Positions 6,387 through 45,629 of a DNA stretch of 64,000 nt are shown here, one piece after another. The notes below the pieces were generated by a model. That model was not told where the DNA came from, ran no database searches, and worked only from the letters and a program-made list of their open reading frames with translations. A program made the position numbers and the translations under genes. How positions within the stretch are numbered: the first letter of the stretch is position 1; each line of letters begins with the position of its first letter. Location of the stretch: the NCBI GenBank assembly GCA_021740915.1, contig JAIOYW010000004.1, positions 124,001-188,000 on the forward strand. Reading direction: 5' to 3'. The DNA is from Ignavibacteriales bacterium. Its GTDB lineage: Bacteria; Bacteroidota; Ignavibacteria; Ignavibacteriales; Melioribacteraceae.

Positions 6387-6390
6387 TTCA

Positions 6391-7422: not shown

Positions 7423-7494
7423 TTAATGAATTGCCGGCTGAGCAAGTTTCAATTTAATTAAATTATTAAATTTCAGAAGCATTGATAGCTGATT

Positions 7495-8799
7495 ATGAGC
7501 CAAAAAAAGCATAAAATCCCCCGGAATGTAATTGCTCTGGGAATCGTAAGTCTTTTCACCGATATTTCAACAGAAATGATTTATCCATTACTACCGCTCT
7601 TTATCTCGACTCTCGGCTCCGGAGCTGTTATGTTAGGGATTATTGAAGGACTTGCAGAAACTACTGCTTCAATGCTGAAACTGGCAAGCGGAGTAATTTC
7701 CGATAAAGTTGGTAAGAGAAAATTTCTTGTTGTAGCCGGTTATGCAATATCTTCAATTATCCGGCCATTTACAGGTATAGTCTCAGCCGCCTGGCAAATA
7801 GTTCTGATCCGCACAACTGACAGAATTGGCAAGGGAATTCGTACTTCGCCAAGAGATGCCCTCATCGCCTCTTCAGTGGATGAAAGTATTCGCGGAAAAG
7901 CTTACGGTTTTCATAGGTCTATGGATCATCTTGGAGCTACGTTAGGACCGTTGGTAAGTATTTTGATCGTAACTATACTGATATTCTGGTTCGACTTGAT
8001 TGATATTTCCTCATTACTTAGAACTGTTTTTATAATTTCACTTTTACCGGGACTTTTGGCAGTTCTGACACTCATATTTTTTGTTCAGGATAAAACAGAT
8101 GGTATCAAAAAAGGTGGAAGTTTTTCACTTTCGTATAAAAATTTTGATGCAAATTTTTGGAGATACCTTCTCTCTATTACCATATTTACGCTCGGAAATT
8201 CCTCAGATGCTTTTATGCTTTTCCGTATTCAGGAATCATTTCAGCAAAGTGGGGTTCTGCTTTCAATTGTTTCCGGTATTCCGCTTATAGAATCCATGAT
8301 GCAGAAACTCGGAGATACAGGCACGCAGACAGGTTTTTTAAGTATCCTCTTCCTGCCGTTTATATGGTCTTTTTTCCATATTGTCAAAGTTATTTTCTCC
8401 ACTCCGTTCGGCGCTCTCTCAGATCGGATCGGGAGAAAAAAAGTAATAAATATTGGCTGGGGAATATACGTATTCGTTTATATCGGTTTTGCATTTCTTG
8501 ATATTCTTCCAGGCAGTATGCAAATTCTTGGATCTTTTATTCTTTTTACGATATATGCCATGTATTATGCTTTCACGGAGGGAGCTGAAAAAGCATTCGT
8601 TGCAGATATCGTCAGTCCTGAACTTAGAGGCAGTGCATTTGGACTTTATAATTTTTCAATTGGAATAGCAGCGTTACCGGCAAGTATAATTTTCGGATTT
8701 GTTTACTATGAGCTTGGAGGAACCACGGCATTTGGAATAGGAGCAGGAATTGCGGTGATCGCTATGATCGCATTAAATTTTTTGGTAAAGGAAGATTAA
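7495..8799 (+). CDS. Major facilitator superfamily transporter
   Basis: Inner-membrane MFS permease of 434 residues with about twelve hydrophobic segments. The N-terminus reads SLFTDISTEMIYPLLPLFIS, as in the TetA-like and multidrug-type branches. The loop between helices 2 and 3 has the MFS pattern in SDKVGKRKF, and its counterpart in the second half is ALSDRIGRKK. DRIGKGIRTSPRDALI follows helix 4. The substrate cannot be read from the sequence; efflux of a small molecule is one possibility. It lies 72 bases after amrS on the same strand and ends at a strong bidirectional terminator. Confidence 0.88.
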   Translation: MSQKKHKIPRNVIALGIVSLFTDISTEMIYPLLPLFISTLGSGAVMLGIIEGLAETTASMLKLASGVISDKVGKRKFLVVAGYAISSIIRPFTGIVSAAWQIVLIRTTDRIGKGIRTSPRDALIASSVDESIRGKAYGFHRSMDHLGATLGPLVSILIVTILIFWFDLIDISSLLRTVFIISLLPGLLAVLTLIFFVQDKTDGIKKGGSFSLSYKNFDANFWRYLLSITIFTLGNSSDAFMLFRIQESFQQSGVLLSIVSGIPLIESMMQKLGDTGTQTGFLSILFLPFIWSFFHIVKVIFSTPFGALSDRIGRKKVINIGWGIYVFVYIGFAFLDILPGSMQILGSFILFTIYAMYYAFTEGAEKAFVADIVSPELRGSAFGLYNFSIGIAALPASIIFGFVYYELGGTTAFGIGAGIAVIAMIALNFLVKED

Positions 8800-8807
8800 C
8801 GATAAAG

Positions 8808-8843
8808 AAAACTCCGGGCTGAGATTAATCGACCCGGAGTTTT
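8808..8843. terminator. Bidirectional Rho-independent terminator between MFS and AbgT genes
   Basis: A perfect 11-bp stem (AAAACTCCGGG at 8808-8818 with CCCGGAGTTTT at 8833-8843) with a 14-base loop. T-runs follow in both directions, so it can serve both convergent genes. Confidence 0.92.
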
Positions 8844-8848
8844 TTTCA

Positions 8849-10366
8849 TTATCCGATAAATAGTTTCGCACCTGGTCCGATTGGAAAACCAAGCAGTAAC
8901 CAGATCACCAGCAGAATTGTCCACGAGACTAGAAACAAAATTGAAAATGGAAGCATTGTTGAAATTATCGTCCCGATACCGGCTTCTTTATCATATCTCT
9001 GGAAAAATGCTACAATAAGAGCAAAATATGACATCATCGGCGCGATTATATTTGTCACACTATCTCCGATACGATAAACAAGCTGAGTGAATTCTGGAGA
9101 GTAGCCGAGAAGCATAAACATCGGCACAAAAACCGGCGCCATAATCGCCCATTTGGCGGAGGCGCTTCCCATAATCAAATTGACAAGCGCTGTGATGAAA
9201 ATAAAAGAAATCATCAATGGAATTGTGCCTAAACCTGAAGATTTAAGCACTTCCGCACCTTCGATTGCAAAAATCAAACCAATATTAGTCCAATTAAAAT
9301 ATGCTACAAATTGAGAAGCAAAGAAAACAAGGACAATATAAACACTAAGAGTTTCCATCGATTTTGCCATTCCTCTGATAACATCTTTTTCATTTCTGAC
9401 TGTACCGGCTCCAAGTCCATAAGCTATTCCTGTAATAGCACCCCCTAAAAAGATTAGCGAGACAATTCCCGACATAAATGGAGATCGTAATAAATCACCA
9501 GTCAAGGGATCGCGAAGAAAACCATTCGCGGGAACAGTACCGGCAAGCAGAATCAGCGCCAAAGCCCCGGATGCAATCGAAGCAAATTTGAGCCCTCTTT
9601 TTTCCTCCGGACTAACTTTATCAATTTCAACTGCTCTCTCAGAACCCTTATAATCTCCAAGCCTCGGGATAACGAATTTTTCACTGAACCATGTTCCTAC
9701 TATCGCAAGGAAGAATGTAGAAACTGCCATGAAATAATAATTAGCAGCAGGATTAACTATATATTCTGGGTCTATTATTCTTGCCGCCTCTTCTGTTAAT
9801 CCTGCCAGCAGGGGATCAATTGTTCCTAAAAGAAGATTGGCACTATATCCGGCAGATACTGCTGCAAATGAAATTGCAAGTCCGGCAATTGGGTTTCTGC
9901 CAACCGAGAGAAAAATGATGGCAGAGAGAGGAACCAGAAGCACATAACCAACTTCACTGGCAGTATTTGAGAGAATACCCGACATAACGATTACGAAAGT
10001 AAGTAATTTTTTAGGGGCAGATACAACCATCATTTTAATTGCAGCCGATATAAGCCCTGAACCTTCAGCAATGCCAATGCCTAGCAGAGACACGAGTACG
10101 GTTCCAAGGGGAGCAAAACTTGTAAAATTACTAACCATATTTGTCATTATTCTATGGAGCCCATCAACAGAAAAAAGATTTACTATTGTGACCGAACTCT
10201 TTGTACCTGGATGAATGACCGAAAAGTCAAATAAACTTAGTATGCCTGAGAGAATTACTACTCCTACCGAAAGCATAAAAAACAGCATTGCGGGATCAGG
10301 AAGTTTGTTTCCAATCCGTTCGATAGTCTTCAAGAATTTTAAAGGGAATCCGCTTTGTTTATTCAT
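8849..10366 (-). CDS. AbgT-family transporter (p-aminobenzoyl-glutamate transporter family)
   Basis: Inner-membrane protein of 505 residues, matching the AbgT family length (about 500), with many hydrophobic helices. The N-terminus [20 protein letters not shown] is typical of the family, as are the middle [20 protein letters not shown] and the later [12 protein letters not shown] segments. E. coli AbgT imports p-aminobenzoyl-glutamate; other members have been linked to sulfonamide export, so the substrate here is open. It is a single-gene unit, convergent with the MFS gene and divergent from the DUF1232 gene. Confidence 0.93.
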
Positions 10367-10628
10367 AATAATCCTTTCCTTTCTGTTTAAATAATCATTG
10401 CAGTTTTCGCAGCCTGGAAATAGGAGCTTTTCTACCTCTATCTCACTTCATCATTTATAGATTAAGTGCATTTGATAATCCAGGATTCAGTTACTCCTCT
10501 TTTTACATAACAGGAAAATCTTCCGGAAAGTTTTCTGGTATTCTTTTTTGAGTTAAATTTATACGTTATATCCTGAAGAATTATTTTGTTGTTTCTCAGG
10601 GTTATTTTTCTATCAGCAAAGAGGTATT
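10367..10628. other. Divergent promoter region between AbgT and DUF1232 genes
   Basis: 262 bases without a gene. An imperfect inverted repeat at about 10511-10537, centred on TTCCGGAA with flanking GAAAA/TTTTC arms, lies 90-115 bases upstream of the plus-strand gene and could be a regulatory site. A GAGG ribosome site at 10620-10623 precedes the ATG at 10629. No RNA gene was recognised. Confidence 0.4.
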
Positions 10629-11489
10629 ATGTTGCTTAAGAATTATATGTTGGCAGACCGCGAAACTGGGGCGATAATTGCTGACTTCAAAAAAGAACTG
10701 AATGCCTTAAGGATTGAAGAAATAATGACAGATTATTTCTTCAAGATGAGCGAAGCTTTGATGAGAACAGATTTTTATAATACGATTGGCAGCCAAACGC
10801 TCAAGACGATTAATCTGCCGAGAGATTCTGAGGGTAAGTATTATGTAAAGACAGGGATCAGCACATTAGAGATCCCCGCAAATTTCGAAAAAATATTCGT
10901 TAATACCGCCCGGATCTGGCAGGGATTATCTGAGGTAACCGGACAACTGGGGCTTGACAATTATTTTCCTGAATATACCGCCCATCTTCTTGAATGGATT
11001 AATCATGTAAAAGCCCGAACAGCCGAACAAACCAGCTCGATTCTTGATAATTGCGATATTCTTTATGAAAATTACAAAGCAAGGGTTGCAAATCTTGCAA
11101 AAGAGTCTGTTGAACCTCAATATAATTTTATTGGATTAATCCCGGAATTATTTGCGTTCACATGCAGATTGATCTCTCTTCCGGGAATAAAGCCGGAATT
11201 TAAAGCGGAACTTTCGATGGCGCTTATTTACCTGACATCTCCGGTTGATTTTATTCCTGAAAATATCGTACATCATCCGATTGCTGTCACAGATGACCTA
11301 ATTGTAATGCTTCATGTAATAAAAAAAGGGATTCTTACTGAATATCTTGAACCTGATGTAATTGCCAGGCATTGGAGAGGTGAAACCGGATTTTTCTTAC
11401 ATTTCGATAATCTCATTCTGAGTGTTGAGGAAATTTTTGGTAAAAACTTTTTAAGTATTTTCAGCAATAAACATATCTTTGAAGATTAA
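10629..11489 (+). CDS. DUF1232 (YkvA-like) domain protein
   Basis: A 286-residue protein of unknown role. The only recognisable part is near residues 190-235, where LIYLTSPVDFIPENIV followed by VTDDLIVMLHVI matches the DUF1232 pattern (hydrophobic helix, SPxDxIP, DDL). The first 190 residues are predicted mostly helical and do not resemble a family I know. There is no signal peptide. The start is supported by GAGG five bases upstream. It stands alone, 94 bases before the next gene. DUF1232 proteins are often membrane-associated, but function is not known. Confidence 0.72.
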   Translation: MLLKNYMLADRETGAIIADFKKELNALRIEEIMTDYFFKMSEALMRTDFYNTIGSQTLKTINLPRDSEGKYYVKTGISTLEIPANFEKIFVNTARIWQGLSEVTGQLGLDNYFPEYTAHLLEWINHVKARTAEQTSSILDNCDILYENYKARVANLAKESVEPQYNFIGLIPELFAFTCRLISLPGIKPEFKAELSMALIYLTSPVDFIPENIVHHPIAVTDDLIVMLHVIKKGILTEYLEPDVIARHWRGETGFFLHFDNLILSVEEIFGKNFLSIFSNKHIFED

Positions 11490-11583
11490 TTTCATGAGAA
11501 GTGTATCTCTTTGGTCTGTATCAATATTTTAATTTTCAGTAAATTGTTATATTTAATACCATTAATGTATTTGGGAAAAGATA

Positions 11584-12711
11584 ATGTGTGCTAATAAATA
11601 TTTTTCGAAACCTGATATTCGAATATTTTTTTTATTTCTGTCGTTAACAGCATTTGTTGCAGGATGTAATCCTGCTGATACTGATGATATTCAGGATCAG
11701 CTCGAAATAAGAAAACTCACTAACAGCCTGATTGGAATAAAAGATGCAGCTTACATTGGTGATGGCGGAAAAATTATCTATATAGAGGACATAAACGGCA
11801 CATCGAATTCAATTAATATAATTGATGCCGACGGACTTAACCAAACAAGGATTGTGACTGGAAAGATACTTTCCAACCTCTGTGTTTCAAGAGACAGCAA
11901 AAGTATTCTGTTCAAGGAAACAACAACATCCTCCAGCGGCAGTTCGGTTAAGTTATTTATGTACAATATTGAAACAACTGTTCAAACCGACATTACCGAT
12001 TCAATAACCACAGGCATCAATTATTCCGATTTGACACCGACCGGAATTTCTCCCGATAATAATAATATAGTTTTCGATGTAACATCTAATTCAGGTGGAT
12101 TTTTCTCAAATACGGTTTATGTTTATAATTTCCCGGATGACAGTTCTTTTGCTGTTACTCCCGGTATGGATTTATTTTCGGGAGGATTTTCCCCAGATGG
12201 CTATAAGATTCTGTTGGTTGGTTTTGCTGGCGACAGTAATGCAGGAATATTTACAATAGGAACAGACGGGACTCAGTTCACAACTTTACAGAATGGACTT
12301 GAAATTGTCAGGGTTACCGGGTACTCTCCGCAGGGCTATAGAATAATGTTTTCTGCATCGGTTACAGATTCTTTATCCGGGAATGAGTATGAACAAATTT
12401 TTTCGATGGCATCAGACGGATCGAACAAAAAACAACTCACATCAAGCGCATATGATAATTCTCCTGCCGCATTCTCCAATTCAGGTGGGCAGATATTATA
12501 CTCATCCAACCGCGACAGTTCAAGAGCCGGCAACACAAATATTTATATGTCAGAATCTGACGGAAATTTTGAGAGGCTGCTCATCAATTATAGGGGCAGG
12601 GATATCGCACTGGAATTCTCACCAACGAATAATCAGATTATGTTTTTATCCGATGATTCCGGTATAATAAATCTCTACGTGAAGAATAATCTTAAGCCGA
12701 TCCCTGAATAG
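11584..12711 (+). CDS. Lipoprotein with PD40/TolB-like beta-propeller repeats
   Basis: A 375-residue exported lipoprotein. The hydrophobic leader ends in a lipobox VAGC with the modified cysteine at residue 28. The rest consists of repeats with the PD40 pattern, for example PDGYKILLVG, PQGYRIMFSA and NSGGQILYSSNRDSS, plus a C-terminal SPTNNQIMFLSDDSG, consistent with a six- or seven-bladed propeller. It resembles the propeller of TolB but no Tol/Pal genes are nearby, so a TolB role is not claimed. Function unknown; periplasm or outer membrane expected. Confidence 0.82.
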   Translation: MCANKYFSKPDIRIFFLFLSLTAFVAGCNPADTDDIQDQLEIRKLTNSLIGIKDAAYIGDGGKIIYIEDINGTSNSINIIDADGLNQTRIVTGKILSNLCVSRDSKSILFKETTTSSSGSSVKLFMYNIETTVQTDITDSITTGINYSDLTPTGISPDNNNIVFDVTSNSGGFFSNTVYVYNFPDDSSFAVTPGMDLFSGGFSPDGYKILLVGFAGDSNAGIFTIGTDGTQFTTLQNGLEIVRVTGYSPQGYRIMFSASVTDSLSGNEYEQIFSMASDGSNKKQLTSSAYDNSPAAFSNSGGQILYSSNRDSSRAGNTNIYMSESDGNFERLLINYRGRDIALEFSPTNNQIMFLSDDSGIINLYVKNNLKPIPE

Positions 12712-12740
12712 TACAGCTTTTTAATAAGATTCCAGCAGCC

Positions 12741-13028
12741 TTAAATATTTTTAAGCGAATCCTCGATTTTCTTCGCTAACTCTACAACACCGATTCTCTC
12801 AAGTGTGAGTTTTGAAGACTTTACAATTATAAGAGGTGTATCTCCGCCGTTGTTCAGGTTCCGCAGTAAATTAAAACTTAATCGGTACCGGTCGTTCTGC
12901 ACAGGGATATATTCTTTAAAAGTTTCAATCAAACTATAGACTTTACTTTCATCAGAATTCTCTGAAAATTTCTTAACTTCTGGAGGTGGTAAAGTTGTCA
13001 TATCTAAACCAATAATTTTTGAATGCAA
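12741..13028 (-). CDS. Small hypothetical protein (95 aa)
   Basis: I do not recognise this protein. It is hydrophilic, with no signal peptide, membrane segment or cysteine cluster. The C-terminal third (VELAKKIEDSLKNI) looks helical and the middle may be a small alpha/beta fold. It occupies the gap between the lipoprotein gene and the divergent glycosyltransferase gene, with only 46 bases between its ATG and the GTG of the latter. It fills an otherwise empty stretch and ends in a natural place, so it is probably real. Confidence 0.55.
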   Translation of the reverse strand: MHSKIIGLDMTTLPPPEVKKFSENSDESKVYSLIETFKEYIPVQNDRYRLSFNLLRNLNNGGDTPLIIVKSSKLTLERIGVVELAKKIEDSLKNI

Positions 13029-13074
13029 ATTTTTATTGAGTAAATTTAAGGCTTATTATTAAATAATTAAAATA

Positions 13075-14058
13075 GTGAACGGTACTGTCAGAAAAATTCT
13101 CATTATTCGTTTAAGTTCCCTCGGAGATGTTTTACTTACAACACCTATTATCGGATATTTATCTGATCGTTACAGCTCACCTGAAATCCACTACCTCGTC
13201 AAGTCACAATTCGCCGATGCCATAAAATTTCATCCGGCTCTCAACAAATTAATAATATTTGATAAAAATGATGTCGTTCAATTAAAAAAAGAGATAGCAT
13301 TTGAGAAATATGATTTTATAATCGATTTGCAAAATAATCTAAGGACACGCAGACTGACCAGAGGCATTCAAACAAAAATTTTCCGTTTCAAAAAAAGACA
13401 TCTGAAAAAATTCCTTTTAGTGCATCTTAAAATTAATTTTCTTAAGTCCAAAAATTCCATTACGGAGTTGTATGCTGAAACAATCGGAGCAGCGAAGGAT
13501 ATTATTAATTATCCTGCACGGATATATTTACCTGAAGGGAAATTATCACCGAAAATTCAGCGGAGAATTGGTCTCTGTCCCGGAGCACAGCATTTTACTA
13601 AAAGATGGCCTGAAAAGAATTTCAGCCGACTGAGCACATTACTATTAAACGCAGGCTTCTCAGTATCCTTTCTCGGAGGGAAAAGTGACATTCCCATTAT
13701 CCGTGAATTAACCGGAAGGATACGCGGCACAATTGATGCTTCGACTGAGAATAATTTCATTGAACTTTGCCGAAATATGATTGAATGTGAAGTTGTTGTA
13801 ACTAATGACAGCGGACTAATGCATACCGCAGCCGCTCTTGGAATACCGGTGCTTGCAATTTTTGGCTCGACTGTAAGAGAATTCGGTTTCTTTCCGTTTA
13901 ATATCAGATCTGAGATTATTGAGAACAACAAACTTACCTGTCGTCCTTGTTCCCACATAGGGAGAAAATCCTGCCCGAAAAAGCATTTTAATTGTATGGA
14001 AGAATTATCGGCTGATTTAGTATTTTACCGCTTTGAAAATTTTTACAATTCACTATGA
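13075..14058 (+). CDS. Glycosyltransferase family 9 (heptosyltransferase-like)
   Basis: ADP-heptose:LPS heptosyltransferase-type enzyme of 327 residues, expected to add heptose to the LPS inner core on the cytoplasmic face. The N-terminal KILIIRLSSLGDVLLTTPII is the family signature. The C-terminal donor domain shows CPGAQHFTKRWPEKNFSRL at about 165-185 and TNDSGLMHTAAALGIPVLAI at about 245-265. The start is GTG at 13075. It overlaps waaA by four bases (ATGA), and heptose precursor genes (rfaE1/rfaE2) are at 52-53 kb, supporting a role in core assembly. The exact acceptor (WaaC, WaaF or other) is not determined. Confidence 0.9.
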   Translation: MNGTVRKILIIRLSSLGDVLLTTPIIGYLSDRYSSPEIHYLVKSQFADAIKFHPALNKLIIFDKNDVVQLKKEIAFEKYDFIIDLQNNLRTRRLTRGIQTKIFRFKKRHLKKFLLVHLKINFLKSKNSITELYAETIGAAKDIINYPARIYLPEGKLSPKIQRRIGLCPGAQHFTKRWPEKNFSRLSTLLLNAGFSVSFLGGKSDIPIIRELTGRIRGTIDASTENNFIELCRNMIECEVVVTNDSGLMHTAAALGIPVLAIFGSTVREFGFFPFNIRSEIIENNKLTCRPCSHIGRKSCPKKHFNCMEELSADLVFYRFENFYNSL

Positions 14059-15335
14059 TCTTTCTATTAAGACTATTTTACAGTAATGTTTTCCTACCAA
14101 TCTTTTCTGCTGTGCTGCGCATAGCTGGTTTATTCAATTCGAAGATAAAGGAAGGGCTCAGGGACCGCAGGAAATTATTCGAAAATCTGGTGATTGAATT
14201 ACAGGGAATTGACAAGAGAAAAAAAATGATCTGGTTCCATTCTTCTTCACTCGGAGAATTTGAACAGGCAAAACCAATCCTCGAACAATTAAAAATCGAG
14301 CGATCTGTAAACGTACTGGTAACTTTTTTTTCTCCGTCAGGTTATAAGAACTCAATCAGATACAATAAGGCAGATCTGATCTCATATCTTCCATTCGATT
14401 CCCCTTCCGATGTAAGAAGATTTGTCGGATATGTCCGCCCCTCTCTTGTGATCTTTATGCGTTATGATATCTGGCCAAATCTGGTATATGAGCTTAGTTC
14501 GCGCAAGGTCCCGATGGTAATTGCAGATGCTACAATGCGGACAAATTCGAACCGGTTTCTTCCAGTAAGCAAGAAATTCCACAAACAACTTTTTTCAAAA
14601 TTCTCAAAGATCCTCACGATATCAGATGAGGATAACAATAACTTTGTGCGATTCGGTTTGCCCGGAAAATTGCTTTCTCCTGTCGGGGACACACGGTTTG
14701 ACAGAGTGATGCAGAAAAGTATTGAAGCAAGAGAAAAAATACTGATCCGGGAAGAGATTATTGCCGGAAAGCAGTTGATTGTTGCTGGAAGTACCTGGGA
14801 TGTGGACGAGAATGTAATTCTCCCGGCACTTATTAAAATCCTCATGAAAATGGAAGATGTAATTCTGATTTTAGCGCCTCATGAACCAACTGTTGTGAAT
14901 CTCGAAAAAATTGAAGGACATTTTCCACCCGAAATTTCGACAATTAGGTTTTCTTACGTCAATACAAACTATAATAATGAGAGGGTAATTATTATTGATT
15001 CGATTGGAATTCTTCTCAGCCTATATCGCTATGCTCATATAGCATATGTGGGGGGAGCATTCAGGGCAGGGGTTCATAATGTTTTGGAACCGGCAGTCTA
15101 TGGAATTCCCGTCGTTTATGGTCCCAGACATACAAACAGCCAGGAAGCGGTGAAACTTATTCAGAATGGTGGTGCGAAAGTTATCAGGGACAAAAAGAGC
15201 GCATACAGAGTATTCAGAACAATCCTCACAGACCAAAACATTTCGGCACAAATGGGGAAAATCAATAAAGATTATACCTCCGGTAACACCGGAGCTACAG
15301 AAAAAATTATGGCTGAGCTAAAAAAATTGTTATGA
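14055..15335 (+). CDS. waaA: 3-deoxy-D-manno-octulosonic acid (Kdo) transferase WaaA
   Basis: Transfers Kdo from CMP-Kdo to lipid A precursor at the inner membrane. The 426 residues equal the usual family length (about 425). An N-terminal hydrophobic anchor is followed by FHSSSLGEFEQAKPIL, containing the conserved catalytic glutamate region. The GT30 donor-domain segment VAGSTWDVDENVILPAL is near residue 237. YVGGAFRAGVHNVLEPAVYG is near 330. It overlaps the preceding glycosyltransferase by ATGA. Its last six bases overlap the end of the convergent TPR gene, leaving no room for a separate terminator. Confidence 0.95.
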   Translation: MIFLLRLFYSNVFLPIFSAVLRIAGLFNSKIKEGLRDRRKLFENLVIELQGIDKRKKMIWFHSSSLGEFEQAKPILEQLKIERSVNVLVTFFSPSGYKNSIRYNKADLISYLPFDSPSDVRRFVGYVRPSLVIFMRYDIWPNLVYELSSRKVPMVIADATMRTNSNRFLPVSKKFHKQLFSKFSKILTISDEDNNNFVRFGLPGKLLSPVGDTRFDRVMQKSIEAREKILIREEIIAGKQLIVAGSTWDVDENVILPALIKILMKMEDVILILAPHEPTVVNLEKIEGHFPPEISTIRFSYVNTNYNNERVIIIDSIGILLSLYRYAHIAYVGGAFRAGVHNVLEPAVYGIPVVYGPRHTNSQEAVKLIQNGGAKVIRDKKSAYRVFRTILTDQNISAQMGKINKDYTSGNTGATEKIMAELKKLL

Positions 15336-16481
15336 CCTCTTTGATTTCTTAATTTTCTGAAGATACTCGTTGGCGGTTTTGTAAGATTCTTTATATTCAT
15401 CATAATCAAGAACTGCTTTGAATCTCTGTTCCGCCTCCTTAAGTTTCCCTTCATCAAAATCCATTTCAGCAAGAAAAAGAGTTGTGTTAACTAAGAACCC
15501 GCTCTGAGATTCTTTATCCTCTTCCATTTTTTTCGATAAATTTTCACATTCAAGCAGGTAATGCCTCGCTGCCTTAAAATCGTCAGCGTTTTTTCTATCC
15601 ATTCCAAGATAATAAAGCGCTTCTCTTTTCACCCAGTTGTTAAATCCGGTTTTTTTATTTTCGCATTTCTGAAGAATAGTTCTGAAAATTTCCGAGGCTT
15701 TTTCATAATTACCCATTTTTACCCAAAACTTTCCATAGTAACGCTGGAAGGCAGGATTATCAGGGAATTCTTTCACAAGCCTCGCGGCATGTTTTTCAGC
15801 CGGACGGATATCATCCTCAAAATTCACGATTAGATTTAAGAGGATAAAAGTGGCCTCAATGCTGGCATATCGTCCATTGAGAGCTGCATCCTCAAGTTGT
15901 GCGAGTCCTTTTTCTCTGTTTCCTGGAGGGAAAAAAACCATAAAGGGCTTTACGAATGGGAATTTTTGGGGTATTACTGAGGCATAATAATTGTAAATAC
16001 CAAAGCCTAACTGAATATCTTTATTTTTAGGATCAAGTTCATAGGCTTTAAAGACAAGAGGGAGGGCATCTTTTCCATCAAGCGCAGCATTAAACCAGCT
16101 CTGTCTTACTGAGTACAATCTGCCCCGGAATCCTAATGAACCACCCTTAAAAAAAATAGCATCAACGTTTTTGGGATCCTTGTCCAGAATATTATCGCAC
16201 ATTTCAATAACATTCTCAAGTTTGTCGGTGAATATCTCATCATATTCTTCGTTATCGAAATCGAGCATTATTTTCCACCACCATATCATTGCATCAAAGA
16301 ATTTGCCCGCTGGATGACGCGGATAGTCTTTTGCAACGACACCAAATGTTTTTTCAGCATCTTTGAACTTCAGACTATAAATCTGATGAACCCCGGCATT
16401 CAACAGGGAATCGAACCGGCTTTCTGTTGCGAAAACCGGTATCGAAAAAATGATTACTAGGATGAAAACGTATTTTTTCAA
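15330..16481 (-). CDS. Exported TPR-repeat protein
   Basis: A 383-residue protein with a Sec signal peptide (MKKYVFILVIIFSIPVFA) followed by helical repeat pairs of tetratricopeptide type, e.g. KDAEKTFGVVAKDYPRHPAG near residue 40 and NYEKASEIFRTILQKC near 255. It is likely a periplasmic or outer-membrane-associated scaffold of unknown partner. It follows glyS on the minus strand after 13 bases and may share its transcript. The closing segment is rich in lysine. Confidence 0.75.
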   Translation of the reverse strand: MKKYVFILVIIFSIPVFATESRFDSLLNAGVHQIYSLKFKDAEKTFGVVAKDYPRHPAGKFFDAMIWWWKIMLDFDNEEYDEIFTDKLENVIEMCDNILDKDPKNVDAIFFKGGSLGFRGRLYSVRQSWFNAALDGKDALPLVFKAYELDPKNKDIQLGFGIYNYYASVIPQKFPFVKPFMVFFPPGNREKGLAQLEDAALNGRYASIEATFILLNLIVNFEDDIRPAEKHAARLVKEFPDNPAFQRYYGKFWVKMGNYEKASEIFRTILQKCENKKTGFNNWVKREALYYLGMDRKNADDFKAARHYLLECENLSKKMEEDKESQSGFLVNTTLFLAEMDFDEGKLKEAEQRFKAVLDYDEYKESYKTANEYLQKIKKSKRS

Positions 16482-16494
16482 GTGTGGTCGGAAC

Positions 16495-18009
16495 CTATTT
16501 AATTTTATCGAAAAGGTAACTTCCTGTTTTACTGATACTGATTCTTTCCTGTTCCATCGAGTCCCGTTCTCTTATCGTAACTGTGTCATCAGCAAGTGTT
16601 TGTGAGTCAACAGTTATACAATAAGGTGTTCCGGCTTCATCCTGTCTGCGATAACGTCTGCCGACAGCTCCTTTATCATCATAGAACACTCGGTACGATT
16701 TCATAAGATCGTGATATATCTTCTCAGCAATCTCAGGCATTCCGTCTTTATTCACGAGTGGAAGCACTGCAGCTTTTACCGGTGCCAGAGCAGGATGCAG
16801 CCTGAGGACTGTCCTCGTTTCGTTGTTAACGATCTCCTCATCTAATGCGTTCATAAGGAAAGCCATGAAGGAGCGGCTGGCTCCGGCGGATGTTTCTATA
16901 ATATAAGGAACAAATTTTTCTTTAGATTCTTCATCGAAATATCTAAGCCCTTTTCCTGACATCTGCTCATGCCGCGAAAGGTCAAAATCTGTACGGTTGT
17001 GGATACCTTCCATTTCTCCCCAGCCGAAAGGAAACTCGAACTCAATATCTGTAGCTGCTTTCGCGTAATGTGCAAGTTTATTCGGGGCGTGATCTGAAAA
17101 CCTTAGACTTGAGGCTTTCATTCCGAGATCGATATACCATTGCATTCTTCTCTCTTTCCAGTATTCAAACCATTTTGTATCACTTCCAGGTTTTACGAAG
17201 TACTGCATTTCCATTTGTTCAAATTCCCTTGTGCGGAAAAGGAAATACTTTGTGTTTATTTCATTACGGAATGCTTTCCCAATCTGAGCTATACCGAAGG
17301 GCAGTTTCTGCCGGCTTGCAACCTGAACATTAAGAAAATTCACATAGATTCCCTGTGCCGTTTCAGGTCTCAGATAAATAACATTGCCTTCCTGCTCTAC
17401 TGGGCCAAGGAAAGTTCTGAACATAAGATTAAAATTTCTAGGGGGAGTGAATGTACCTTTATTGCCGCACGTTGGACATGTTAAACCCTGTGCAAATTCT
17501 GCAGCTAATTCTTTATTTTCAAGAATAGCTTCGAAAAACTTGTTTTTATCAGAGTTCTTTGCCGATTCAAATGCTGACCGCAGAGAATCTTTTCCTTCGA
17601 TAGCAGATTCAAATTCTTCAAGTGTTTTTTCTTTCTTCTTTTCGCTCATAGCTTCGGCAAGAGTGTCTAATCTGAACCGCGCTTTACAACTCTTGCAGTC
17701 AACCATTGGATCAGTAAAATTTTCAACATGTCCCGATGCTTCCCAAACTTTCGGGTGCATCAGTATTGAAGCGTCCAGCCCCTCTATATCATCTCTGTAT
17801 GTCATGGCTTTCCACCATGAGTCTTTAATGTTTTTTAAAAGTTCCACTCCAAGAGGACCGTAATCCCAGCATCCATTTAATCCCCCATATATCTCACTTG
17901 ACTGGAATACAAATCCTTTTCTCTTTGAAAGGGACATCAGTTTTTCAAATACTTGTTCAGGTTTGATAGCAATTCCTCCATCTCTAAAAATTAAGTGCAA
18001 ATATAACAA
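16495..18009 (-). CDS. glyS: Glycyl-tRNA synthetase (alpha2 type); true start probably about 17967
   Basis: Class II synthetase charging tRNA-Gly with glycine. Motifs include YGPLGVELLKNIKDSWW, LRPETAQGIYVNFLNV, FRNEINTKYFLFRTREFEQM and ETSAGASRSFMAFL. Paired cysteines in CKSC and CPTC suggest a zinc site in the insertion. Coordinates give the whole open frame, which opens with TTG at 18009. The homologous region begins only at IKPEQVFEKLMSLSKRKGF. The sole good Shine-Dalgarno (GGAGG, 17979-17975) is seven bases before an in-frame ATC at 17967-17965, and no ATG, GTG or TTG lies near it. An ATC (or adjacent ATT) start, or a base error at that codon, is therefore likely. Confidence 0.94.
   Translation of the reverse strand: MLYLHLIFRDGGIAIKPEQVFEKLMSLSKRKGFVFQSSEIYGGLNGCWDYGPLGVELLKNIKDSWWKAMTYRDDIEGLDASILMHPKVWEASGHVENFTDPMVDCKSCKARFRLDTLAEAMSEKKKEKTLEEFESAIEGKDSLRSAFESAKNSDKNKFFEAILENKELAAEFAQGLTCPTCGNKGTFTPPRNFNLMFRTFLGPVEQEGNVIYLRPETAQGIYVNFLNVQVASRQKLPFGIAQIGKAFRNEINTKYFLFRTREFEQMEMQYFVKPGSDTKWFEYWKERRMQWYIDLGMKASSLRFSDHAPNKLAHYAKAATDIEFEFPFGWGEMEGIHNRTDFDLSRHEQMSGKGLRYFDEESKEKFVPYIIETSAGASRSFMAFLMNALDEEIVNNETRTVLRLHPALAPVKAAVLPLVNKDGMPEIAEKIYHDLMKSYRVFYDDKGAVGRRYRRQDEAGTPYCITVDSQTLADDTVTIRERDSMEQERISISKTGSYLFDKIK
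17975..17979 (-). promoter_or_regulatory. Shine-Dalgarno of glyS pointing to a non-standard start codon
   Basis: GGAGG on the minus strand. In-frame codons after it are ATT (17973-17971), GCT and ATC (17967-17965), then AAA CCT GAA. The spacing of seven bases fits ATC best. Confidence 0.6.
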
Positions 18010-18193
18010 AATGATGATAATCGGAAGATGCAGAAAGCAAGTACAAAGTTCTGAAGCAATAAATTTGGAATAAATTGAATGTTAGAAAAAGTTGAAAAAT
18101 TTACGATCTGGGAGAAACAACGGGAACCATCCAATAAAAGAATCGTCTAATTACAATTATTCAATATAATAATACACCAAGCCAGAGGAAAAA
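18010..18193. other. Divergent region between glyS and the M16 peptidase pair
   Basis: 184 bases with no gene. A TATAAT hexamer at 18165-18170 could be a -10 element for the peptidase genes, but no clear -35 element accompanies it. AGAGGA just before the ATG at 18194 is the ribosome site. Confidence 0.35.
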
Positions 18194-19519
18194 ATGATAA
18201 GAAAAACTATAATGATGATTTTACTTTTTGCATCGGTAACTGTATTCGCCGAGGAAAAGAAAATCGAATTTGAGCAGTATAAACTTGATAATGGTCTTAA
18301 CGTAATATTGCATCAGGACAATTCCACTCCAATTGTTGCAGTAACGATTATGTATCATGTTGGTTCAAAGAATGAAGACCCTAAAAGAACCGGATTTGCA
18401 CATTTTTTTGAACATCTGATGTTTGAAGGCTCTAAAAACATTGATAGAGGCGGTTATGACAAAATTGTTCAGAAAGCAGGAGGCACACTCAATGCCAACA
18501 CTTCTTTTGACAGAACATTTTATTACCAGATTCTGCCCGCTAATCAACTTGAATTGGGACTTTGGCTTGAATCGGAACGTCTGCTTCACTTGAAAATTGA
18601 TAGCATAGGCGTTGAAACTCAAAGAAAAGTTGTAAAAGAAGAAAAAAAACAAAGATTAGATAATCAGCCTTACGGATCGCTGCTTGAAAAAACATTTGCC
18701 AATGCCTATAAAGTTCACCCTTACCGGTGGACTCCAATTGGATCAGCTCAGTACATTGATGATGCAACGCTTGATGAATTTCTGGAATTCTATAAAACAT
18801 ACTATGTACCGAATAATGCAACCTTATCTATTGCCGGTGACATTGACATTGATGATGCTAAAGACTTGATCGAAAAGTATTTCAGCGATATTCCTTCCGG
18901 ACAAAGGAAAATGCTCAGACCGGAAATAGTAGAACCTCCGATGGAAAAAGAAGTGAAAGAGATAGTATATGATAATGTTCAGCTTCCATTGATCGTAAAC
19001 GCATATCATATTCCTGCACAGGGTACTGATGATTATTACGCGCTTAGTATGCTCACCACATTGCTTTCCGGCGGAAAAAGTTCGAGGTTATACAAGGAAT
19101 TAGTTGACAATAAACAGGTAGCGTTACAGGCAGGCTCAATTCCATTTGCGCTTGAGGATCCGGGTCTGTTTATAACATTTGCAATCCCGAATATTGGTAT
19201 TGAGCCGGATAGTCTTCAAAATGAAATCGGCAGTGAAATTGCTGCGGTAAAAAAAGACCTGATCACTGAGCGTGAATTTGAAAAACTTCAGAACCAGATT
19301 GAGGCAGATTTTGTGACACAGAATTCAACTGTTGAGGGAATTGCCGAAAGTCTGGCTAATTATTTTGTCTATTTTGGCAACGCCGACCTTATTAACACCG
19401 AAATTGAAAGATATTTGAAAGTAACCCGCGAAGATCTTAAGAGAGTTGCTAATCAGTATCTTGATGAAAACCGTCGGGTAGTTTTATTGTATATGCCAAA
19501 ATCGGCAGAAAATAATTAA
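18194..19519 (+). CDS. M16-family zinc metallopeptidase (catalytic subunit type)
   Basis: A 441-residue exported protease. A signal peptide (MIRKTIMMILLFASVTVFA) precedes an insulinase/pitrilysin domain. The inverted zinc motif HFFEH is at residues 70-74 with Glu73 as the general base. The downstream acidic stretch VVKEEKKQRLDNQPYG, about 76 residues later, supplies the third ligand. The second, non-catalytic half shows the usual LLSGGKSSRLYKELV. It is followed after 26 bases by a second M16 gene without the zinc motif, so the two products probably form a heterodimer in the periplasm, as known for paired bacterial M16B proteins. Confidence 0.93.
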   Translation: MIRKTIMMILLFASVTVFAEEKKIEFEQYKLDNGLNVILHQDNSTPIVAVTIMYHVGSKNEDPKRTGFAHFFEHLMFEGSKNIDRGGYDKIVQKAGGTLNANTSFDRTFYYQILPANQLELGLWLESERLLHLKIDSIGVETQRKVVKEEKKQRLDNQPYGSLLEKTFANAYKVHPYRWTPIGSAQYIDDATLDEFLEFYKTYYVPNNATLSIAGDIDIDDAKDLIEKYFSDIPSGQRKMLRPEIVEPPMEKEVKEIVYDNVQLPLIVNAYHIPAQGTDDYYALSMLTTLLSGGKSSRLYKELVDNKQVALQAGSIPFALEDPGLFITFAIPNIGIEPDSLQNEIGSEIAAVKKDLITEREFEKLQNQIEADFVTQNSTVEGIAESLANYFVYFGNADLINTEIERYLKVTREDLKRVANQYLDENRRVVLLYMPKSAENN

Positions 19520-37872: not shown

Positions 37873-37915
37873 CCAGCGGCAAATAAAATACATAAGGGTG
37901 AATTATTTTGAAAAA

Positions 37916-37943
37916 ATTAATGGCGGGTTTCCCCGCCATTAAT
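37916..37943 (-). terminator. Rho-independent terminator of the triplicated-repeat gene
   Basis: A perfect 12-bp stem (ATTAATGGCGGG at 37916-37927, CCCGCCATTAAT at 37932-37943) with a 4-base loop. On the minus strand a TTTTTT run follows. Confidence 0.92.
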
Positions 37944-37954
37944 CCTCAATCAAG

Positions 37955-39655
37955 TCACTTCTGTTCTTTATAAACTGTTATTCCATAGCTTTCTTCATCA
38001 TCCGGTGGTCTTGTGTTCCAGTCCCCGTATGCATGTGAGTCATCAGTCCTGTAATGAAGTCTGTACTTTCCCTTTTTTAATCTGATAACATCATTAAACT
38101 TCCGGTTTTTGTCTGCCCCGCCGGCATGGGTCGTTTCCTTATAACGCATACGCCAGATATCTTCACCAGATTCAGCATTTTCAATCCAGCCATAATCATA
38201 CAATTCATTCCCCTGACCTTCTCCTAATGCATAAATTCTCACATCAAGGTCCTGATCAATTGTGAAGATTTCAGAATATTTTCTGTCGTCCCTCACTCTG
38301 ATGATCTGTGCCAAAGCCTTTTCATTTCTGTAATCTGAAGGATTAAATACTGTGAATTGTGATTTTTCTCCGGGATTGATTGCCCAAATTGTTATTCCCC
38401 ACATCTCTTTTCGGAAAGGTGGTGTATCATTCCAATCCTCATAGGAATGTGAATCATCAGTTTTGTATGCCACGATATAATTTCCCTTCCTGAGGGTGAT
38501 AACCCCTTCGAATTTCCGGTTTTTTGATGCACCTCCGCCAGGGACTGAGTTTTTTGTACTCATTTCCCAGACACGCTCCCTTGTGTCTGCATTATATATC
38601 CAACCGTAATCAGCCATATCCTGGTGACCAGCTTCGCCAAGACAGAAAATCTTTAATTGTGTATCTTTTTCAAGACGAATCCCTTTTGTGATGAATTCAT
38701 CATCCCATACTTTCTTAAATTCAATTATCGGCTCAGCTTCAACAAGTTCTTCAAGAGGTTTAATTTTATCCTTGTCCTGAGGATCGACGGAAAGAATCAT
38801 TCCCCACATCAGTGGATCGTAAGGAGGAAATTCATTCCATTCCTGGAAACTGTGGGAATCATCTGAAAAATAATATGCCCTGTAATCACCAGGTTTAAGC
38901 ACAACGGATGTATTAAAACGTCTGTTCTTTTTGGCACCGCCCCCATGCTCTGATTTGCTTTGCTCCATAGCCCAGACTTCTTTCATATTCGTCTGGTCGT
39001 AGATGGAGCCCAGATCAAACATTTTGTTATCTCTTCCTTCACCATTTCCATATATCTTCACTCTGACTTCGGATTTAACAGAGAACCCCTGTTCAAGACT
39101 CTCATAATCCTTAACCTTTGTGAAGGAAACGAAAGATTTCTCCGTTAACTCCTTAACGGGTGTCTGATCATCGAGTACCTTCAAAAGTCCTTCATCCGCT
39201 TCTAGTTCAATGTATATCTTCGATTTATCTCTTTTCTTAAATCTGCGGTTTTCATCACTGAAAATCTCACCCATCAACGACCTGAAATCACTACCATTAA
39301 AAAACAGATTAAAGCTTGCACCGCCAAGATAAAGTTCATATTTACCAGCTTTCAATTCTTTATTTGTTGAAAATTCAAAAACTCCGTCCCTTTTCTCAAG
39401 TTCAGAATCCGGTATCTCCCAAACAAGTTCACGAGAAGTGGTTTTAAGTATCCATGGTAAAAAAGTCGGCTCCGAATACCTTTTTCCGAATTTTGCCCCG
39501 ACTCCGTTGATGGTAACTTCAGTATCCTCAGTCAATTCGAAGCAGACGTATGCTAATCCGCCTTCGTCGGGCTGGTTAAGCTTAATTGATTGTGCATCTA
39601 TTACTGCGCCGAATGAAAACAATAAAAATATCAGAAGAAAAAATATTCGTTTCAT
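37955..39655 (-). CDS. Exported protein with three copies of an unrecognised module of about 92 residues
   Basis: A 566-residue protein with a signal peptide (MKRIFFLLIFLLFSFGAVIDA). Residues about 22-190 form a unique N-terminal region. Three copies of one module follow at about 198-290, 334-425 and 472-562, spaced by about 137 residues. Each module has a Gly-Glu-Gly/Ala turn, YGWI-like and VW-x-M segments, GGA-x-KNRKF, a KG-x-Y strand and a highly conserved block: SDDSHSFQEWNEFPP, TDDSHSYEDWNDTPP and TDDSHAYGDWNTRPP. Most copies end in MWGI-like strands. The constant Asp-Asp-Ser-His and Asp/Glu-Trp-Asn could be a ligand or metal site. I know no named family for it. It is a single-gene unit with its own terminator. 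Confidence 0.85.
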   Translation of the reverse strand: MKRIFFLLIFLLFSFGAVIDAQSIKLNQPDEGGLAYVCFELTEDTEVTINGVGAKFGKRYSEPTFLPWILKTTSRELVWEIPDSELEKRDGVFEFSTNKELKAGKYELYLGGASFNLFFNGSDFRSLMGEIFSDENRRFKKRDKSKIYIELEADEGLLKVLDDQTPVKELTEKSFVSFTKVKDYESLEQGFSVKSEVRVKIYGNGEGRDNKMFDLGSIYDQTNMKEVWAMEQSKSEHGGGAKKNRRFNTSVVLKPGDYRAYYFSDDSHSFQEWNEFPPYDPLMWGMILSVDPQDKDKIKPLEELVEAEPIIEFKKVWDDEFITKGIRLEKDTQLKIFCLGEAGHQDMADYGWIYNADTRERVWEMSTKNSVPGGGASKNRKFEGVITLRKGNYIVAYKTDDSHSYEDWNDTPPFRKEMWGITIWAINPGEKSQFTVFNPSDYRNEKALAQIIRVRDDRKYSEIFTIDQDLDVRIYALGEGQGNELYDYGWIENAESGEDIWRMRYKETTHAGGADKNRKFNDVIRLKKGKYRLHYRTDDSHAYGDWNTRPPDDEESYGITVYKEQK

Positions 39656-42449: not shown

Positions 42450-45400
42450 TTAAAAATCAAGACCAATAGACAAATAATACTTCGGAAGTGAAAAATGCTG
42501 CATGTCGAAAGACCAGGCTATATCAAGTTTCCATAAGAAGATAAGATACCATCTGAATCCATATCCCATTCCAAGCAGCAGATCTTTTGTAATAAGATTG
42601 CCGTATTCATCTTTTGCAAAAAGTTGAAGCTGTTTATTGTTACTCCAGGCTGAACCGGCATCAATAAACATATTCCCTAAAATATTCTGGAAAAGTATTG
42701 GCAGCGGACCAGTCAGGAGCGCTCTGATAATCGGCATTCTAAGTTCAAGATTCATTAATGAGTACTTAGTACCCACCTGGGCAGCATAGTCGTATCCTCT
42801 CATCGGCAACGCTGGTGAAAGAAATGCAAAGTCGGAGGCTGATCGGATAGGTATCTCACCGCTGGAAAAAGATCTGTTAATCCAGCTATCAACTCCACCT
42901 AAGAAAAAATTCTGAGGGTTTGCACCGCCGGAATATCCTCCCGAAAATCTTATAACAAAAGAATTATCGTACCAGAATCTCATGTATTTGCGATAATCGA
43001 ATGTAATTGAATAAAAACTTCGTTTTGATTCTCCGAATCCTGGATTTCCTAAAATCCCAATATTGTACCTCGAACCCTGAATTGGGGAATAATACCCAAA
43101 AAGAGTATTATCATGCGCAAAACTTAACGATGGGATAAGGTATGTAACAGTTTCATTTTTTTGAGTGATATCATCCAGATTTTCTGCTGAAACGTTAAGA
43201 TAGCTAAGTGCGCTTTCAAATCTGTAAAATCTGCTAAGCGGCAAGGAAGCAGACAGAATCAATCCATAATTCCTGAATCTGTGAAGATATGCCTTGCCCA
43301 TGTTACTTAAATAAACAAATCTGGCGGTATGAAATGCTTCAACGCCATAATCGATTTTTTTAGCGAGATAATAATAAGCAAGCCCGTAATCCGAATTTTT
43401 CAGATCAACCTGCAGGCTGGTTACTCCGATAAGCCGATGATTGCCGAGGACATCGCTGAAACTCAATACTGTTGTACCTAATAATCCATAGAAAGTACTA
43501 TAACCTGCATTAGCATAGATCAGGTCCGGAGAAAAACTCACCTTGTATTTGTTAAGCAAAAAATTACCATTAGAATCAAGGTTTTCAACAAAGAGATCAG
43601 CCCCGCTCAATTCCCCATTTGACGAATCAGAAGTTATATCCTCTCCAAAAACAAAATTGCGATATTTCGAAGTTTCTGCTCTATTAGTGCTGTCTTCTAC
43701 ATTTTCATACTGTCCCGTGAAAATGAAATTCTCACCCTCGGTCGTTTGAGAACTCGAATCCTTATAAACAATCTCATCATTCGTCAGAACGCTGTCTGAA
43801 AAGATATTTCCCTTTTTGCCGGAAACAAGCTCCTCCATATAGGCAGTCATTTTGATTCCACCATCAATGGTTTTTAATTCGAAGGGATTATTCAGAAGAA
43901 ATATATTGTAACCCGAATTGTAAAGGGCACCAAAGACCAGTTTTTTTCCGTCTTTTGAAAGGGAAAGCTGATTTAATCCGTTCAAAGAATTTGTTATTGG
44001 AGCCGGTTTTTCTGACAGATATGGATCAGCCGCCGTACTGTCATACATAAGTTTTAATTTGAAAATATTATCGATCCCGTTATAATCCGAAACAAAAAGC
44101 ATTTCAGTGCCTTCAGGATTAATAACCGGTGATTTTTCGCTGCTCAGAGCCCAGTCTGTCAGTCTGTAAACTTTTTCATCCTGAAAACTGAACTTATAAA
44201 GATCGGTCTGATTATAATTATGTGAACTCATTTCAAAATCTTCAGGAATCATATAGGGATTAACGAAATCCCCCCGGTCTGAAGAAAAGTATAAGTTTTT
44301 ACTGTCGGGTCCCCATACAGGACTATCTTCTGAGAACATATCATTTGTGATATTTCGCAAAGTCTTAGTTGCGAATTCAAAAACATAGAGATCAGATTGA
44401 GAAGAATTGCTGCCGTTAAAAACAATTTTTTCACCATCCGGTGACCATGAAACACTTTCTATTCCAGGCAACTCAAAATCCAGAAGTGTCTCCTCCTCTG
44501 TATCGGTATCAATAACGTAAATTCTGTCAAATCCTTTACGCTTTACACTCAGTGCAATTCTTTTATTGTCGGGAGCCCAGGTCAGAGACGGGTAAAGAAG
44601 GTTTAATTCTTCAAAGTCATTCGTTAGCCCGCTCTCAACCACCTGTTTAATCACCTTTCCATCAAATGAATTCATTATATAAACATTTAGAAAAATATCT
44701 CTGTCCGATATAAACGCTATTTTGTCACCCTGCGGAGAAATCGCGGGACTGGTGTTATAAAAGCCGCCTGTTTTTTTATTTTCTGTAAGTTGTTTTGCCA
44801 TTTCAGAAGGGTCTTTGCGATAAGCAATTTCAGGCCAGTATGTTCGTTTGAGGTCTTTTTTCCACCTGGTGTTTAGTTCTTCGAGGGTTAATCCGATTGA
44901 TGCTTTTAACCCGGATTCAAGATCGCCTGCTCCCCTGATTTTACTAAGCATCTCACCAACTTTTTTTGGTCCGTACTGACTGGCGATATAATAGAATAAA
45001 GACTGTCCTCCGCGATAAGCAAAATATCCGTCAAGTCTTTCTATATCCGGGAGATATTCGTTAATTATGGCATCCCTGATGAACATATCTGAATTTGTCT
45101 CCCATTCACTAGCGAGATATTCAGCCATTCCTTCGTGATACCAAAGAGGGAGTTGAAGTGATATTCCTTTTGCAATAATATTCTGAACAGTTCCGCCATA
45201 TAACATATCCCGCATTACTGCATGAACAAGCTCATGATGGATTACGTGTTCGAACTTTTGATATGATCCCTCAAATGGGAAAACCACTCTGTTTTTAAAT
45301 GGCTCGGTAAAGCCGCCAATACCCTGACTTATATACGAATCCGAAGTATTTGTTTCAGCAAAATCGTTATGGGAGTTATAAACAATGAGCGAAATACGGC

Positions 45401-45629
45401 TGTTGATTTCATAATCAAGGTCACTTTCGAGATCGGCAAGTGATTCCTCAGCTACCTTAGCTGTAAACTCTGCGATTTCACTTCCGTCAAGCGAAAAATA
45501 AATATCAAAATGTTTTGTCTGGATAAAATACCAGTCATACTCATTAAATTGCACTTTATTCTGACCGAACTGCGCGCTGATATTGAAGGCGCTGAGTAGA
45601 ACAACAAACAAAACAACTTTAAATTTCAT
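42450..45629 (-). CDS. Outer-membrane protein with metalloprotease-like, propeller and BamA-like barrel regions
   Basis: A 1,059-residue exported protein in three parts. After a signal peptide, residues about 30-270 form a peptidase-MA-like (gluzincin) domain with the zinc motif His132-Glu133-x2-His136 in HHELVHAVMRD and the later WYHEGMAEYLA, whose Glu166 can be the third ligand. Residues about 285-570 are PD40/TolB-like repeats, e.g. SWSPDGEKIVFNG and VWGPDSKNLYFSSDRGD. The last 350 residues resemble the Omp85/surface-antigen barrel, with IQGSRYNIGILGNPGFGES and LPMRGYDYAAQ, ending in a phenylalanine (IGLDF). It follows rnr after 47 bases. Active protease status is inferred from the motif only. 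Confidence 0.85.
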   Translation of the reverse strand: MKFKVVLFVVLLSAFNISAQFGQNKVQFNEYDWYFIQTKHFDIYFSLDGSEIAEFTAKVAEESLADLESDLDYEINSRISLIVYNSHNDFAETNTSDSYISQGIGGFTEPFKNRVVFPFEGSYQKFEHVIHHELVHAVMRDMLYGGTVQNIIAKGISLQLPLWYHEGMAEYLASEWETNSDMFIRDAIINEYLPDIERLDGYFAYRGGQSLFYYIASQYGPKKVGEMLSKIRGAGDLESGLKASIGLTLEELNTRWKKDLKRTYWPEIAYRKDPSEMAKQLTENKKTGGFYNTSPAISPQGDKIAFISDRDIFLNVYIMNSFDGKVIKQVVESGLTNDFEELNLLYPSLTWAPDNKRIALSVKRKGFDRIYVIDTDTEEETLLDFELPGIESVSWSPDGEKIVFNGSNSSQSDLYVFEFATKTLRNITNDMFSEDSPVWGPDSKNLYFSSDRGDFVNPYMIPEDFEMSSHNYNQTDLYKFSFQDEKVYRLTDWALSSEKSPVINPEGTEMLFVSDYNGIDNIFKLKLMYDSTAADPYLSEKPAPITNSLNGLNQLSLSKDGKKLVFGALYNSGYNIFLLNNPFELKTIDGGIKMTAYMEELVSGKKGNIFSDSVLTNDEIVYKDSSSQTTEGENFIFTGQYENVEDSTNRAETSKYRNFVFGEDITSDSSNGELSGADLFVENLDSNGNFLLNKYKVSFSPDLIYANAGYSTFYGLLGTTVLSFSDVLGNHRLIGVTSLQVDLKNSDYGLAYYYLAKKIDYGVEAFHTARFVYLSNMGKAYLHRFRNYGLILSASLPLSRFYRFESALSYLNVSAENLDDITQKNETVTYLIPSLSFAHDNTLFGYYSPIQGSRYNIGILGNPGFGESKRSFYSITFDYRKYMRFWYDNSFVIRFSGGYSGGANPQNFFLGGVDSWINRSFSSGEIPIRSASDFAFLSPALPMRGYDYAAQVGTKYSLMNLELRMPIIRALLTGPLPILFQNILGNMFIDAGSAWSNNKQLQLFAKDEYGNLITKDLLLGMGYGFRWYLIFLWKLDIAWSFDMQHFSLPKYYLSIGLDF

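Follow-up and report, generated by a model that had tools for sequence, protein, structure and literature searches.

CUB domains (PF00431; cubilin, C1r/C1s, MASP, TSG-6, PCPE-1) are extracellular eight-stranded jelly rolls that occur in tandem arrays and carry acids on two loops, one joining strands 3 and 4 and the other strands 7 and 8. In the Ca2+-binding CUB domains, loops L5 and L9 serve both for the ion, which their acids hold, and for the ligand (PMC8051872). The PPC or clostridial collagen-binding domain (PF04151) is a beta-sandwich of bacterial exported proteins, present in tandem copies in ColG. A third point of comparison is provided by signalling proteins, namely Reg_prop/Y_Y_Y hybrid sensors and SpoIIE (RsbU-like) phosphatases. 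The protein described here is an exported tandem array of a module that shares extracellular setting and, by prediction, strand number and loop acids with CUB, and approximate size, export and tandem arrangement with PPC; some of the sensors and phosphatases carry one copy of it in their propeller part, but our protein, unlike the Reg_prop/Y_Y_Y sensors, lacks a propeller, a membrane segment and an output domain.

Gene, repeat architecture and distribution

The gene lies at 37955..39655, minus strand, of the window (the whole 64-kb stretch of DNA analysed) and encodes a 566-aa protein in which the ORF, a module profile and a model of the mature protein together delimit a signal peptide, a degenerate module 0, a helical linker and canonical modules 1-3. 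The initial annotation had proposed an exported protein encoded by a stand-alone gene with its own terminator, and both proposals held up. The open reading frame matches these coordinates exactly and begins with a Sec-type signal sequence, MKRIFFLLIFLLFSFGAVIDAQS, ending ...VIDAQS; by direct reading of the sequence the signal peptide was placed at residues 1-21 (MKRIFFLLIFLLFSFGAVIDA; 39593..39655, minus strand), and inspection of the N-terminus found no lipobox. The whole protein has only two cysteines. Upstream, 398 bp separate the gene from a NUDIX gene, and shortly past the stop codon lies an intrinsic terminator (37905..37945, minus strand), a perfect hairpin of the form ATTAATGGCGGG-GAAA-CCCGCCATTAAT followed by a T-run. 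RNA folding of 37900-37960 gave -25.8 kcal/mol (z -6.4), a stability that none of 200 shuffles matched. A consensus terminator scan missed this hairpin, apparently because its stem is extended into the T-run by G-U pairing.

The module profile, seeded with the three obvious repeats and iterated across related loci, recognized four copies of about 120 residues, at residues ~20-119, 171-295, 306-430 and 444-566 (its match numbering counts the five residues preceding the start codon). Modules 1 (38771..39145; E = 4e-42), 2 (38366..38740; E = 6e-48) and 3 (37958..38326; E = 4e-49), all on the minus strand, share a string of site residues that reads EDGKNDHNPG, represented in module 1 by E206, D214, K243, N244, D265, H268, N274 and P278, in module 2 by E341, D349, K378, N379, D400, H403, N409 and P413, and in module 3, the most conserved copy, by E479, D487, K516, N517, D538, H541, N547 and P551. 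The three canonical copies have in common the motifs GE-x7-D, GG-x-KNR, DDSH-x[FY]-x2-WN-x2-PP and VW/IW-x-M. Thus the triplicated, motif-bearing repeat first noticed is real, its profile E-values being far beyond chance, but the length of about 92 residues then assigned to it was too short, as the invariant Glu (E206, E341, E479) recurs with a period of 135-138 residues. The N-terminal region, first described as unique, is instead a divergent fourth copy: module 0 (39299..39598, minus strand) matches the profile at E = 3e-11 and keeps the fold residues, having lost the polar motifs and other site residues. In most orthologs its E-value falls between 1e-15 and 1e-28, and it is present in all of the four-module orthologs, so that a separate unique N-terminal domain is ruled out by the profile matches.

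No named domain had been recognized in this protein at the outset, and database searches bore this out. Pfam, NCBIfam, PHROG and PDB sequences gave nothing above cut-off for the whole protein, the module profile or 38 diverse modules; plasmid tblastn likewise gave no match. CUB was not matched by the protein at E<=10 or by the 38 modules at E<=1, and PPC had no Pfam profile match to either. The sole Pfam match for the whole protein, AMPK1_CBM/CBM48 (PF16561; 17.1 bits against a cut-off of 26.8, E 0.0064, 30 residues), was rejected as chance-level, the likeness being limited to a short strand-turn-strand L-x-x-G-x-Y segment. In a comparison with periplasmic lysozyme inhibitors of the PliG/PliI type, an NCBIfam lysozyme inhibitor was weakly matched by two of the 38 modules (best E 0.03), and the structural Z to PliG (4dzg) was 6.8. 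Literature searches on the motif letters, on SpoIIE with propeller regulators and on bacterial CUB domains returned nothing about the module. The module is a genuine uncatalogued family, absent from the databases searched.

The window's own genome has a single gene of the four-module type. Four-module proteins of 38-45% identity came from 11 of the 57 other relatives sampled (in one case a contig-end fragment), and the record titles from a contig search placed the gene in Melioribacteraceae, Ignavibacteriales, Calditrichota, KSB1, Zixibacteria, Gemmatimonadetes, Neomarinimicrobiota, Chlorobiaceae and Rhodothermales, that is, in the FCB group. Of 395 sampled genomes, 67, from across the phylum, had a match to the module profile itself. 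In a tree of modules, module 0 formed one clade (support 0.989) and the modules fused to sensors another (0.98); modules 1 and 3 mostly stood apart and module 2 was not resolved. These clades indicate that the multiplication is old rather than a recent duplication.

Predicted fold and comparison with CUB and PPC

The AlphaFold model of a single copy (module 3) is a confident eight-stranded beta-sandwich (mean pLDDT 96.7, pTM 0.89), with the strands at 3-8, 15-22, 26-37, 40-49, 55-58, 73-82, 85-92 and 114-119 and the site residues on loops of the predicted model. In the model's module numbering, which differs from that of the 125-column profile used below (E35/D43/D94 here are E36/D44/D95 there), E35 and D43 are at the 3-4 hairpin, G68, G69, K72 and N73 on the 5-6 loop, and D94, H97, N103 and P107, up to G114, on the 7-8 loop. 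Judging by strand order, these three loops would share one pole of the sandwich. The mature-protein model had a mean pLDDT of 87.3, and within it module 0 was mostly above 70 outside the linker.

Foldseek with the single module found no match in the PDB at E<=0.001, and with the full-length model its top match was the four-CUB tandem of cubilin (E 1.9e-9), with poor global superposition. With VIA-align the best matches were tied at Z 8.1, a PPC collagen-binding domain and the Kremen CUB domain, followed by other PPC, CUB (PCPE-1, C1r/C1s) and GOLD domains, GOLD being nearly tied. These nearest folds are binding modules, but models of this fold type commonly reach a Z of about 8 as background. 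The fold class is therefore the safe statement: the module is predicted to be a CUB/PPC/GOLD-type beta-sandwich.

PPC resembles the module in its superposition (Z 8.1 to 5sv5, 2.9 A over 91 residues) and in its strand order with an L-x2-G-x-Y turn, but there is no profile match and the site residues are not common to the two. For CUB the likeness may extend to the loops, since by strand count those that bear E35/D43 and D94 (3-4 and 7-8) are L5 and L9, and a cubilin CUB domain has the same Glu-x7-Asp spacing. A CUB-type E...D...[ST]D...G motif, whose last element was widened after seeing the module, occurs in 55-89% of canonical and 81% of sensor-borne copies, as against 0/56 of module 0 copies, 0/7 of PPC domains and 0.18% of shuffles. 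On the strength of these motif statistics and of acids on CUB-equivalent loops, the module may, by analogy, work like a Ca2+-binding CUB domain without being filed as one.

A stronger form of this comparison is that the module is a true, highly diverged CUB family with a conserved Ca2+ site, for which one may cite the equal strand count, the equivalent positions of the acids, the E-x7-D spacing, the motif statistics and the cubilin tandem as top full-length match. This is a claim of ancestry, compatible with Ca2+-dependent binding, and we consider it rather doubtful. Profile-profile comparison (hhalign) scored 14.8 against CUB and 15.5 against PPC, both marginal, with 7 of 150 column shuffles doing at least as well in each case; because the scores were tied and equalled by shuffles, membership of neither family is claimed. 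Z 8.1 is below the 8.7-13 seen among CUB domains (PMC8051872), no Pfam CUB match was found, and the module has extra invariant loops (GG-x-KNR and WN-x2-PP), bacterial sensor contexts and no cysteine pairs, although a bacterial CUB domain at locus L141 also lacks conserved cysteines. We assert homology neither to CUB nor to PPC.

Site residues and fold residues

The initial annotation had taken the retained polar residues to bind a ligand or metal and not to serve in packing alone, and comparison of copies supports a putative site. The comparison set comprised 56 four-module proteins (168 canonical and 56 module 0 copies) and 21 copies from sensors; the 56 proteins are related, so that the conservation counts below represent non-independent events. 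Ten site positions (E36, D44, G70, K73, N74, D95, H98, N104, P108 and G115 of the profile) were set against seven fold positions (F21, W47, I48, W58, L83, G86 and Y88). All ten site residues were present in 145 of the 168 canonical copies (47/56, 49/56 and 49/56 at positions 1-3) and in all 21 sensor copies, with per-position frequencies of 97-100% in the canonical copies (88% for K and N104) and 100% in sensors. Module 0 had none or one of the ten in 52 of the 56 proteins and at most three, the frequency at each position being 0-5% (G70 18%, N104 9%, G115 7%). The fold residues were kept in every copy class, at 93-100% in module 0, with all seven present in 48/56.

Since module 0 keeps the fold set without the site set, the fold does not need the latter, which disappeared from this copy all together. 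Judged from these alignments, the seven residues build the module fold, and module 0 serves as a natural control that separates site from packing residues; in the model the site residues fall on loops at what would be one pole. In one divergent lineage, represented at five loci, K73 and N104 vary together and E36, D44, D95 and H98 mostly stay, a joint change that hints at a contact between K73 and N104.

The same residues could instead make a metal-independent glycan-binding module resembling the carbohydrate-binding (CBM) families, with W-N, D-x-S-H and K-N-R contacting sugar and the acids hydrogen-bonding ligand or loops. The predicted grouping of Trp, Asn, Asp and His at the same pole would suit such a role, the structural matches of the sandwich include CBM6, CBM35 and a porphyran-binding CBM, and the hosts of the module include Reg_prop sensors, relatives of which in gut Bacteroides sense oligosaccharides. 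No CBM family was found above cut-off, however, and in some sensor copies W is swapped for F, whereas E, D, N, D and H are invariant there, a pattern that favours the acids over an aromatic platform. We regard glycan binding of this kind as unlikely and prefer a cation-dependent site.

Sensor fusions, gene neighbourhoods and proposed role

Single site-complete modules were found between the propeller repeats of Reg_prop/Y_Y_Y proteins of ~1250-1325 aa, with a SpoIIE phosphatase as output at five loci (L062, L070, L116, L118 and L119) and a histidine kinase at two (L106 and L107); a 1506-aa Reg_prop-module protein (L067) has a histidine kinase with receiver and AraC domain. At L062 (G020:C38:167000-186999) four tandem genes of ~1250 aa (2975-18574), each encoding a Reg_prop propeller with inserted module, Y_Y_Y and SpoIIE, form a lineage-specific sensor array. 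At L065 the module is the C-terminal part of a beta-lactamase-fold (serine) hydrolase. A beta-lactamase-like ORF of 357 aa at L101 (3916-5491, minus strand) overlaps a one-module ORF of 173 aa in a different frame, and given the single protein at L065 we take this as a split gene or frameshift. In every sensor or hydrolase host the Pfam models leave the module uncovered. The near-invariant polar set and the presence of the module within sensor proteins together make a new ligand-binding domain its probable identity. That E, D, D, H, K and N might form a catalytic centre, as strictly conserved charged residues with one His could suggest, is very improbable: the module is a small sandwich made up of beta strands only, the domains that match it closely in structure have no catalytic function, and it is always accessory beside catalytic or propeller domains.

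Gene neighbourhoods also included signalling genes. At 11 Rhodothermales-type loci (four with Rhodothermales in the title, the others grouped by the same neighbourhood) the four-module gene is divergent from a GAF-SpoIIE phosphatase gene, accompanied by a STAS protein in seven and an RsbW-like ATPase in six, and in other lineages a gene for a histidine kinase or sigma-54 regulator takes this divergent position at several loci. No signalling neighbour lies beside the gene in the 64-kb window. Its neighbours there (NUDIX, tRNA-editing domain, RidA, PLP decarboxylase) do not recur beside orthologs and were therefore not used to infer function. The window's genome has 12 SpoIIE phosphatase genes, three of them clustered on contig C7 (20298-25923), and SpoIIE adjacency elsewhere could be partly due to chance or shared ancestry. 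With so many SpoIIE genes and no signalling neighbour in the window, adjacency is supportive only and the fusions are the stronger evidence. Also within the window (42450-45629, minus strand) is a gene for a 1059-aa protein in which Peptidase_MA_2 and a PD40 propeller are accompanied by a long C-terminal part left uncovered; its relatives occur near the four-module gene at two other loci.

Another group of neighbours could suggest an envelope role. At nine loci of other lineages an Omp85-like gene lies near the four-module gene on the same strand, and LiaF/DUF4097-type genes adjoin it at some. The Omp85-like protein at L050 (117-1736) and its relatives at eight further loci combine an N-terminal repeat region with an Omp85-like barrel, and at L036 (4117-4968) and L052 (4098-4967) a LiaF-like (cell-wall stress) gene sits between the two. 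Together with a four-module layout that is fixed across phyla, such neighbours would suit a structural or adhesive repeat, an envelope scaffold with no specific ligand whose polar set is a stabilising Ca2+ or a loop hydrogen-bond network. This too seems improbable to us, as module 0 folds in the model (at the pLDDT given above) without the site residues, and single modules are fused into hydrolases and, with all ten residues kept, into sensors.

We return to ligand binding, and put at about one half the probability that the gene product is a secreted, multivalent, probably Ca2+-dependent ligand-binding protein. After Sec export it would be soluble in the periplasm or at the surface. In modules 1-3 the E/D of loop 3-4, the K-N-R of loop 5-6 and the D/D-x-S-H/W-N of loop 7-8 would form one polar site at one pole, most likely occupied by a divalent cation. 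By analogy with Ca2+-binding CUB domains this ion is probably Ca2+, and it would in turn mediate binding of a polar or charged ligand, for example a glycan, an envelope fragment or a basic peptide; module 0 would be a scaffold or docking copy. As a site-complete module is built into periplasmic-type sensors, we take it as the putative ligand-recognition part of these signalling systems, with the four-module protein as a soluble multivalent binder that possibly feeds such sensors. A broader proposal, which we advance tentatively and hold to be less probable than the binding role itself, is that the module is an FCB-wide ligand-recognition domain, used both as secreted multivalent binder and as plug-in receptor of Reg_prop-SpoIIE/histidine-kinase sensors, and a bacterial, cysteine-free counterpart of the Ca2+-binding CUB domain.

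The profile provides a clean description of an unnamed domain, whose host proteins have either no annotation in family databases or annotation confined to their other parts, and because the four-copy protein includes its own control (the fold without the site), the site can be tested directly. Should the module be the receptor part, its ligand would name an input for SpoIIE partner-switching and for Reg_prop kinases that have no known signal; and if it is indeed a counterpart of CUB, that ligand would constitute a new input for partner switching.
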